Source: Cytophagales bacterium (GTDB lineage Bacteria > Bacteroidota > Bacteroidia > Cytophagales > 172606-1). Taken from it: a DNA stretch of 64,000 bases. The notes under the pieces are model-generated. The model worked only from the letters and a program-made list of their open reading frames with translations. It did no database searches and was not told the DNA's origin. This document shows positions 2,595-46,537 of the stretch, in pieces. Location: assembly GCA_030448185.1 (NCBI GenBank), contig JAUJNL010000016.1, forward strand, positions 1-64,000. Reading direction: 5' to 3'. Numbering within the stretch: the first letter of the stretch is position 1; the number at the start of each line of letters is the position of its first letter. The position numbers and the translations under genes were made by a program.

Positions 2595-3018
2595 ATGCAG
2601 GCTACCAACCAATCTGATTTCTTTAACTATTTTGGAATTGAAAGAATAGAAGCTTACCGCGTCAGAGAGCAGCTTTATGATAACCCGGTAGAAGCAGCCA
2701 GGGCTCAACTGTTAGTCAGGTTAAACGCATTAAAATCATAATATATTGAAAATCAATAGATTATATAATAAAATTTAGGCTTGTCTAAAGTATATATCAT
2801 TGACTATCAGACCATTAATGTTTTTGATGCGTTTAACCTGACTGTTAGTGGAGATTGATGCGTTAAATAAACAGACTGTTTATATTAAAGAAGACGGCCT
2901 TTCGTCAACTCCAGAAATAGCTTCGTGGGAGCCTGCTAACTGGGAACAATTCAGCAACCAACTGCGCCGCGTCGGGACGCTGATGGAATTTATCCGGCAA
3001 CAGGGAAAACAATTCTGA
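2595..3018 (+). pseudogene. Small hypothetical gene split by a MITE
   Basis: The left part starts ATG (MQATNQSDFFNYFGIERIEA) and runs in frame into the inserted element, where it stops at 2741. The right part resumes at 2841 with LLVEIDALNKQTVYIKED and ends GKQF at 3018. Removing the 124-bp element plus one 9-bp target copy restores one uninterrupted frame of 96 codons with no other change. The restored protein is soluble and helical, without recognisable domain; function unknown. The two halves being cleanly in frame shows that the gene was intact when the element landed and that the insertion is recent. Confidence 0.8.
2717..2840. mobile_element. MITE-like element, 124 bp
   Basis: The ends are imperfect terminal inverted repeats of about 25 bp: left CAGGTTAAACGCATTAAAA, right (complement) CAGGTTAAACGCATCAAAA. 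It is flanked by the identical 9-bp direct repeat ACTGTTAGT at 2708-2716 and 2841-2849, the expected target-site duplication. The interior is AT-rich and has no coding capacity, so movement must depend on a transposase elsewhere. None of the transposases in this window shares these ends. Confidence 0.85.
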
Positions 3019-3098
3019 GTGTAAGGAAATGGATGGACGATTTGAAAGCTGCTGGCAAAAAATGATAAATAGTTGAGCAAAAAATGAATGATGAATGT

Positions 3099-3162
3099 CG
3101 AACAAGGAACGCCGAATGAAGAAGTGTTAAAAGTTCCTTATTCATTCGACGTTCCTTGTTCG
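3099..3162. repeat. 21-bp inverted repeat after isomerase gene
   Basis: Arms 3099-3119 and 3142-3162 pair over 21 bp with one mismatch (core CGAACAAGGAACG). It lies 22 bp beyond the stop of the minus-strand isomerase gene, where it could end transcription, although no T-run follows. Related GTTCG-rich runs occur at about 50932-50972. Confidence 0.5.
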
Positions 3163-3184
3163 TTATTTGATAGCTGTTTAACGG

Positions 3185-20426: not shown

Positions 20427-21011
20427 CGAACTCCAAATCCGACCCTGTTAGCCACCATTGCCCGCAAAGAAGGCACGTACTTAGCGCAAGTAAAAGCTAA
20501 TCAGGCTGCCTTGTTAGCCGAGTGTGAACACCTCCGGCAGCATCTGCCGGGAAAGTATCAACGAGAACGCTTAGATAAAGGCCATGGAAGAGCCGAAAAG
20601 CGTCGGGCTAGAGTCTATGAACTAAAAGCAGACTGGCTCGATAAGCGCTGGAAAGATACTCATATTGCGTCTTTGATTGTCATTGACCGGGAGCGTTTAC
20701 GCATTAAAGACAAAGCCAGCAAAGCGCCTTTTTCATCAGTAACTTGCCCTTCGCAATCGGCCAAGACTTTATTTGATGGCGTGCGCAATCATTGGTCGGT
20801 AGAAGCTGATAACTACAGCAGAGATGGTACCCTGGGAGCAGATAAAATCCGCTGTAAAGACGCTACCCGAAGCAGAATGATCGCTTCGGTGATTAATACC
20901 GCCTTGAACTTAATGCGAAAACAGGATAAAAAAGGAAAGCCTTTCGAGAGGTCCTTAACTTTTGTAAACAAACTGCTTTTGCCTGTTTCTCAACTTCTTA
21001 GATTTTTATGA
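20427..21011 (+). pseudogene. ISAs1-family transposase, C-terminal part
   Basis: It begins mid-protein with LLATIARKEGTYLAQVKANQ and continues without frameshift through RNHWSVEADNYSRDGTLGAD to QLLRFL. The NHWSxE...RD..LGED motif carries the last acidic residue of the ISAs1 DDE site (here GAD instead of GED). The N-terminal half and the left end are lost. It forms the boundary between the fragment zone and the sulfur cluster and could mark how that cluster arrived. Confidence 0.8.
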
Positions 21012-26075: not shown

Positions 26076-26602
26076 CTACTCATTCGTGCGCAATAAGTCC
26101 AGGTCCGGCTGGGCGTATTTAAGCATTTTAAAGTACATATCCGTTTTGGTCTGGTAGACGCCTTCTATTTTGGAAATCCGCTCATTGATGACTTGCAGCA
26201 AATGGTTGTTGGCCCGGCATATCACATCCACCTCCAAACCAAAGTCTCCGGAAGTAATCGCCAGAAGGCTGACTTCCCGGAGTCCTTGTAGCTGACTGGC
26301 TACCTGTTCAATGAGATTGGCCGGACGGAAATTTTTATGTGGGCGTAGGCATGGAAATCAACTTTTTCCGGATTCACCCGGCCGACTAGCCGACTATTTG
26401 AATCGTTTTGTCCTCAATCAATTTGCGGGTCCGGATGGTACTCACTGAGTGAGGCCCGTAATTTTTCGGCCATAACGGTGAAGGAGGCCCGGCCATCTTG
26501 CTGTAACTGGACCAGGATGGCAAAATCAAGTTCATCCAGAGATGCATTATGTACATGAGCGGTGAGGGGTGGCTCCATCAGGTGGATTGCATTTAAAAGC
26601 AC
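26076..26602 (-). pseudogene. Lrp/AsnC family regulator, frameshifted
   Basis: N-terminal HTH: LDELDFAILVQLQQDGRASF, then TVMAEKL. After shifts near 26440, 26390 and 26335 the ligand-binding RAM domain follows: VNPEKVDFHAYAHIKISV, LLAITSGDFGLEVDVIC, SKIEGVYQTKTDMYFK, ending DLDLLRTNE at 26076. Lrp-type proteins respond to amino acids. It is divergent from the amino-acid permease and PLP enzyme genes at 28.8-31.3 kb, with two IS elements now in the former intergenic region, so it was probably their regulator. Confidence 0.85.
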
Positions 26603-26713
26603 AATAAATCGACCTATTTTCCTTGAATAAGTACTTCGACAAATTTAGCTTAGGCTATTCCGAAATTAGTTTAGGTTATTTTGACTGTTCAGGATGACTT
26701 TGTGCATAAATTA

Positions 26714-45271: not shown

Positions 45272-45325
45272 GGGTGTAGGACAAGTTCTGAAAAGCAATT
45301 TAACTTAGGTAAAAAAACGGGTATC

Positions 45326-45544
45326 ATGCACGAAGAAGCCGAATTTAAAGCACTATATGAGCAGTTTGTTGCTTGGAAGCAAAGTCAGCAAGGTCAACAG
45401 GATGGATATGCGTATGAGAAAAGCTTCGCCGATTTTTGTCAGCAGTTCAATCAGCAATTATTAGAATTGGCTGCTAACCCTAAGGTGAGTGCAGGGGAAA
45501 AGCAAGGGGCTAAAAAAAAGTCCATACCCGGTTCGGAAAAATAA
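45326..45544 (+). CDS. ISKra4-like transposase, 5' frame
   Basis: 72 codons, MHEEAEFKALYEQFVAWKQS and a helical Gln-rich N-terminal region. Read alone, it ends SIPGSEK. The slippery site A AAA AAG at 45514-45520 near its end allows a -1 shift into the long frame. Confidence 0.8.
   Translation: MHEEAEFKALYEQFVAWKQSQQGQQDGYAYEKSFADFCQQFNQQLLELAANPKVSAGEKQGAKKKSIPGSEK
45514..45520 (+). promoter_or_regulatory. Slippery heptamer A AAA AAG
   Basis: In the upstream frame the codons are AAA AAA AAG, giving the classical -1 slippery heptamer A AAA AAG inside a run of eight A. A -1 shift here continues as VHTRFGKIMVPVTHCLAPSG into the downstream frame, matching the continuous sequence of related transposases. 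Confidence 0.65.
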
Positions 45545-46494
45545 TGGTTCCGGTTACGCATTGCTTAGCTCCCAGTGGCAGGCAAGGTTTTCGCTTGAGT
45601 CCCTATTTTCAGGAGAAGGCTTTACTAGTAGGCCAGGCACTGCCTTTTGATCAAGCCAGTGCATTGATCGAAGAGTTGCTCGGAGAGCCTATGAGCGACA
45701 AGCAGATTGAGCGGGTGTGTCATTATTATGGACAAGTACTGGAAGCAGAAAAACAACAAGAGCCGGTTTACCAGGCTACTGAGCAGTTGCATTACGCCAT
45801 GATGGATGGGTCAATGGTCTTTATCCGGCAAGAAGGCTGGCGGGAGATTAAATTAGGAAGGGTATTTGCTGAGCGTGACTCGATGGCTGAAAAACAGCGG
45901 GGGACGATCCGAGAAAGCCGATATGTAGCTCATTTAGGGGGTCATGATGGGTTTTTAGAAGAATTTGACCACTTACTTTCCGGCAAGAAACAACTGGTTG
46001 CCTTGGCAGATGGAGCCCGTTGGATATGGCAGTATTGGGATACATTCCATCCGGAGGCAATCCAGATTCTGGACTTCTACCATGTAGTGGAGAAAATCGG
46101 TCAGTGGGCTTCGCTCTTGTTCACTGACCCGGCCAAGCAACAGGAGTGGATGGATTTACAGGAGCAGTATTTGCTCACCAATCAAGCCAGAGAAGTAATT
46201 GACGCTATTACTAGCTTTACCTGCCAGGGAGAAAAAAAGAAGCTTCAGGACCAGTTACTCACCTATTTGAAAAACAACCTTGATCGTATGCACTACCAGA
46301 CTTACCGGGAAAAAGGCTACCACATTGGTTCAGGAGCCATTGAAGCCGCCCATCGTAACGTGATTCAAAAAAGACTTAAGCTCTCCGGACAGCGTTGGAC
46401 GGCGCAAGGACTTCAACAAGTAGCCAACTTAAGAGTAGCTTACCTGTCGAACCAGTGGGAATGCGTCCAAAGTGCTATCCGATCTGCCGCTTAA
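45544..46494 (+). CDS. ISKra4-like transposase, catalytic frame
   Basis: 316 codons with the family's catalytic landmarks: YAMMDGSMVFIRQEGWREIK (first Asp), QILDFYHVVEKIGQWA (second Asp) and YHIGSGAIEAAHRNVIQKRL (Glu in GAIEAAHR). The ATG at 45544 overlaps the stop of the first frame (TAATG), so re-initiation could also give this shorter product. Both ends and the catalytic residues are intact, so the element may be active. Confidence 0.85.
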   Translation: MVPVTHCLAPSGRQGFRLSPYFQEKALLVGQALPFDQASALIEELLGEPMSDKQIERVCHYYGQVLEAEKQQEPVYQATEQLHYAMMDGSMVFIRQEGWREIKLGRVFAERDSMAEKQRGTIRESRYVAHLGGHDGFLEEFDHLLSGKKQLVALADGARWIWQYWDTFHPEAIQILDFYHVVEKIGQWASLLFTDPAKQQEWMDLQEQYLLTNQAREVIDAITSFTCQGEKKKLQDQLLTYLKNNLDRMHYQTYREKGYHIGSGAIEAAHRNVIQKRLKLSGQRWTAQGLQQVANLRVAYLSNQWECVQSAIRSAA

Positions 46495-46537
46495 AAACCC
46501 AATGGTAAACTTGTCCTACACCCCCCTTAGTATCATT

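Follow-up and report, generated by a model that had tools for sequence, protein, structure and literature searches.

Target duplications in the ISAs1 family of insertion sequences (IS) range from 8 to 10 bp according to ISfinder. ISAs1 itself is described with ends starting with CAGGG and a 10-bp duplication (PMC11946415). Among the MITEs described so far, two sets can be compared to the one analyzed here. MITEPye1 of Paracoccus yeei carries IS1182-type ends (PMC11578231) and is alike in its low copy number, in terminal repeats that match those of a resident IS, in its target duplications and in its long stem-loop, but it differs in that the partner family is ISAs1 in our case, and in that our copy lies inside a reading frame whereas MITEPye1 lies between genes. 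The MITEs of Anabaena sp. 90 are short hairpin elements causing pseudogenes, in a genome that also has an ISAs1-family IS (PMC3542288); no IS with ends matching those of the MITEs was found there, whereas one was found here. No ISAs1-derived MITE is described in the literature searched, the coverage of which was partial, and we therefore make no claim of a first.

The element considered here lies in a stretch of 64,000 nucleotides (hereafter the window, on contig C167 of a 6.4-Mb draft genome of 207 contigs). It is a real, ordinary case of an IS-linked MITE insertion in a small reading frame, and the preliminary description, made from the sequence alone, had read it correctly. We propose that it is a non-autonomous MITE of the ISAs1 family that would have been inserted in a small gene, moved in trans by an ISAs1-family transposase (probability of about 0.93). 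An orphan-looking hairpin is thus tied to a likely transposase within one genome, which adds an ISAs1-linked MITE to those described.

Anatomy of the insertion

Coordinates and anatomy were rechecked, and the 124-bp element with inverted ends of about 25 bp and identical 9-bp target copies reported in the preliminary description was recovered in every respect (Table 1). The terminal inverted repeats are CAGGTTAAACGCAT and ATGCGTTTAACCTG. With 75% A+T, the element has no coding frame and carries stop codons in all six frames, and therefore truncates any frame that it enters. The whole window was scanned for inverted repeats (12 bp or longer, with a spacing of 60-2000 bp) whose outer edges carry an exact direct repeat of 8-10 bp. 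Just two places passed, namely the MITE site and an ISKra4-like IS; the arrangement is thus not due to chance. Four promoter-like hexamers were found in the MITE or at its edge versus 2.1 expected, a number that A+T-rich sequence easily yields.

The ISKra4-like IS (45272-46523) is 1252 bp long, with ends (GGGTGTAGGACAAGTT) unrelated to those of the MITE and a 9-bp duplication (CCCTTAGTA); its 316-aa ORF is most similar to ISKra4-family transposases, at 186.8 bits where the cut-off is 205. The preliminary description had set the 9-bp duplication of the MITE against the TNA- or TA-making elements of the window; the length of 9 bp stands, but the contrast does not extend to this IS.

Table 1. Features of the interrupted frame and of the inserted element (window positions).
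Feature	Position	Strand	Remark
5' part of small gene, from ATG at 2595, including first target copy	2595..2716	+	codon-use score +0.10
First target copy ACTGTTAGT, 9 bp	2708..2716	.	
MITE, 124 bp, ISAs1-type ends	2717..2840	.	second copy C108:23215-23337
Left terminal inverted repeat	2717..2741	+	first 14 bp perfect, 22/25 matched over 25 bp
TAA closing the interrupted frame after 48 aa	2739..2741	+	
Right terminal inverted repeat	2816..2840	-	
Second target copy ACTGTTAGT, 9 bp	2841..2849	.	
3' part of small gene, to TGA at 3016-3018	2850..3018	+	codon-use score +0.08

The folding of the element on itself beats 200 of 200 shuffles (z -7.15), which is what paired ends would give. A non-mobile hairpin (terminator, REP-type palindrome or structured RNA) flanked by 9-bp repeats that arose by chance would also fold well alone, and the matches in Rfam are mostly to microRNA hairpin families, though far below gathering scores and of a kind that a long palindrome may give. 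Yet the probability of such a hairpin is practically negligible given that a second copy lies elsewhere, flanked by another exact 9-bp duplication, and that the ends are common to a transposase-bearing element. A structured RNA or terminator was likewise rejected, all Rfam matches being below gathering scores and the element being mobile. Four features expected of a MITE are present: the element is short and non-coding, shares its ends with an IS, has a duplication of the same length as that of its partner, and occurs in more than one copy, at unrelated sites.

A second copy and a full-length partner in the same genome

The 14-bp end was found at 22 sites of the genome with at most one mismatch, versus 2 for a backwards control. 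This search, which the preliminary description had suggested, uncovered both a second MITE copy and a 1176-bp element bearing a transposase. The second copy, on contig C108, is 123 bp long and 98% identical to the first (one substitution and one 1-bp indel), and has its own 9-bp duplication (ATCAATAAT) at a site unrelated to that of the window. The copies known are thus those on C167 and C108, which is few for a MITE. All seven insertions with clean duplications in this genome have 9 bp (two of this MITE, one of the IS and four of a second MITE family). Concerning the six others than the one in the window, none of those on C108, C188, C54, C153 and C142 falls within a frame of at least 90 aa, and the IS adjoins a 105-aa frame (14 + 91).

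The full-length element (C138:71276-72451) has the ends CAGGTTGAACGCATTAAAAT and CAGGTTAAACGCATTT and a 9-bp target duplication (GGTTGTATC), the same length as in both MITE copies and inside the range of the ISAs1 family. It carries one uninterrupted ORF of 365 aa that encodes an ISAs1-family transposase (NF033564, E 3.5e-110, 368 bits versus a cut-off of 70) with the Pfam domains DDE_Tnp_1_assoc and DDE_Tnp_1. Four public ISAs1 transposases are 40-42% identical to it (tblastn), and in their alignment the DGK, IDA and ENxLHW blocks, which we take to hold the catalytic residues (D, D and E) of ISAs1 transposases, are kept. The left ends of the MITE and of this IS are identical at 19 of 20 bp, and 14-15 bp are common to the right ends. 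As this ISAs1-type partner has matching ends and a 9-bp duplication, we assign the MITE to the ISAs1 family. The autonomous family member that had been predicted, unseen, thus exists, with matching ends, a 9-bp duplication and an intact transposase ORF. The interiors of the two elements have nothing clear in common, and the MITE is therefore not a plain internal-deletion derivative of this IS.

According to the mechanism that we propose, an ISAs1 transposase supplied in trans by a full-length element like that on C138 would recognize the CAGGTTRAACGCAT ends of the MITE and insert it at a 9-bp staggered cut, and the repair of the gaps would duplicate the 9-bp target. As it stands, the host frame is cut to 48 aa. 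The movement would presumably follow the usual DDE route. The mover may instead have been a different ISAs1-family element, one that is no longer intact or is absent from the assembly: damaged ISAs1-like transposase stretches are found in the genome (C203, C41, C113 and others), the damaged copy on C203 has the end CAGGTTAAACGCATTTAAATTTGG, and two short deletion derivatives (on C19 and C134) retain the initial codons of a further ISAs1 transposase. In addition, the assembly is 75% complete and holds just two copies of the MITE, which leaves room for a different ISAs1 as the actual partner. We nevertheless regard this as somewhat unlikely, since the C138 element is the sole full-length uninterrupted ISAs1 copy found in the genome and its left end shows a single mismatch to that of the MITE. 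The most likely mover is the transposase of C138 or of a close sister, and presumably that of C138 rather than of a lost or unassembled relative.

The interrupted frame

Starting from its ATG, the interrupted frame runs over 41 codons and then 7 within the MITE before it reaches a stop. With the element and one of the target copies deleted on paper, the 96-codon frame of the preliminary description was reproduced, from the same ATG to the TGA given in Table 1. The restored frame has a codon-use score (log ratio per codon) of +0.09. The scores of 20 window genes span -0.05 to +0.24, an interval that includes this value, and in a reversed-window control every one of 57 ORFs of 80-130 aa scores lower (mean -0.13, maximum +0.07); but of 64 shadow frames in genes, 7.8% reach it as well. 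At the local composition, a given frame would stay open over 96 codons with a probability of about 0.002.

The search for the 96-aa product in relatives, which the preliminary description had recommended, yielded no convincing homologue. None was confirmed among 45 candidate stretches in genome_contigs, and in 148 genomes (own included) the one match outside the own genome was weak (28% identity) and lay inside a 498-aa frame; no homologue was found in phages or plasmids, and no Pfam family was matched. This lack of homologues would also be expected if the frame had never been a gene and the MITE had landed in non-coding DNA, which we consider unlikely in view of the codon use and of the low chance of such an open frame, the shadow frames mentioned above notwithstanding. 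The small gene of the preliminary description is thus retained as a frame with gene-like codon use, while, as no convincing homologue was found, its status as a gene is one that we infer. It is probably an orphan gene, and presumably once was a working one. A clean reversal of the insertion would be possible, on paper.

Just behind the small gene, at 3094-3167 of the window, lies a palindrome that resembles stretches on five further contigs of the genome (C88, C193, C197, C140 and C33), with which it forms an intergenic repeat family.

Distribution in relatives

No element of 110-140 bp with the exact 14-bp ends was found in genome_contigs, a set that may not include the own genome, or in viral_contigs. 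When the DNA of the MITE was compared to 59 genomes (own included), partial matches of about 26-50 bp were found in 9 genomes outside the own one, none with the ends. In two members of the genus (G001 and G002), the MOSC and isomerase-like neighbours are present, lying on different contigs in each genome, and neither member has a match to the stretch of the small gene; the flanks of the C108 copy have no match in the two genomes of the genus other than the own one, and no empty site for the window MITE was found in relatives. The preliminary description had named two outcomes as contrary to an insertion, relatives with the gene and the element in place and no empty sites, or a lack of further copies of the ends. 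Neither was observed: the ends do have second copies, and no relative with gene plus element was found.

Ends and duplication length compared to known ISAs1 elements

The full-length IS and the MITE resemble the ISAs1 family (NF033564) in their CAGG..ACGCAT.. ends, in a duplication of 9-10 bp and, for the full-length partner, in the transposase; they differ by CAGGTT in place of CAGGG, by 9-bp duplications and, for the MITE, by having no transposase. The ends of the C138 element retain CAGG as well as the ACGCAT core, with T instead of G as the fifth base. Four public plasmid copies of ISAs1 all have CAGGG ends, three with clean 10-bp duplications and the fourth without duplication. We thus see a mild novelty in the combination of CAGGTT ends and 9-bp duplications, instead of CAGGG and 10 bp.

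In a survey of 29 loci in relatives (L120-L148), 7 showed ends together with a duplication, of 10 bp in five (L130, L135 and three copies in one genome) and of 9 bp in two (L137 and L142). The remaining loci comprise three with ends but without duplication (L128, L139, L145), one spurious pair (L147) and 18 with no ends under the filter used. Both 9-bp cases sit in one genome (G007) of the same family as that of the window: L137 has the same CAGGTT ends and a transposase 58% identical, and L142 has CAGGGC ends. The 9-bp stagger may therefore be a trait of the ISAs1 elements of this bacterial family, and the CAGGTT end may be that of one ISAs1 branch within it, the sample being small in both cases. 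The difference between 9- and 10-bp duplications, along with the altered ends, offers a small, testable handle on the cut spacing of ISAs1 transposases.

Other ISAs1-type elements

The second MITE family, of about 244 bp, has ends (CAGGTTGAACGCATTTAAATTTC ... CAGGTTGATTGCAT) related to those of the 124-bp MITE and is found at 10 sites, 75-100% identical to the query copy, with exact 9-bp duplications in 4 of the 10 copies. That an ISAs1 sub-branch of this bacterial family, with CAGGTT ends and a stagger of 9 instead of 10 bp, supplies the transposase for both MITE families of the genome, unrelated to each other, with clean loss of the MITE switching the small gene on and off, seems highly improbable. 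Two 244-bp copies (L108, C151:4514-4757; L109, C101:26075-26317) have a 9-mer (GGTGCTGGT) in common, which lies in the left flank in one case and in the right flank in the other. It is the sole flank cross-match of this kind among 9 compared copies and reflects either recombination between MITE copies or a mis-join in the draft assembly. The pieces on C19 (160 bp) and C134 (132 bp) have no duplication and, judging from the retained first codons of the transposase, seem to have arisen by internal deletion from another ISAs1 copy. Two further remnants were noticed in the window: a 52-bp right end of the 244-bp MITE family at 26579-26630, and, at 20436-21011, the C-terminal part of an ISAs1-type transposase, whose match to NF033564 (49 bits) does not reach the cut-off.
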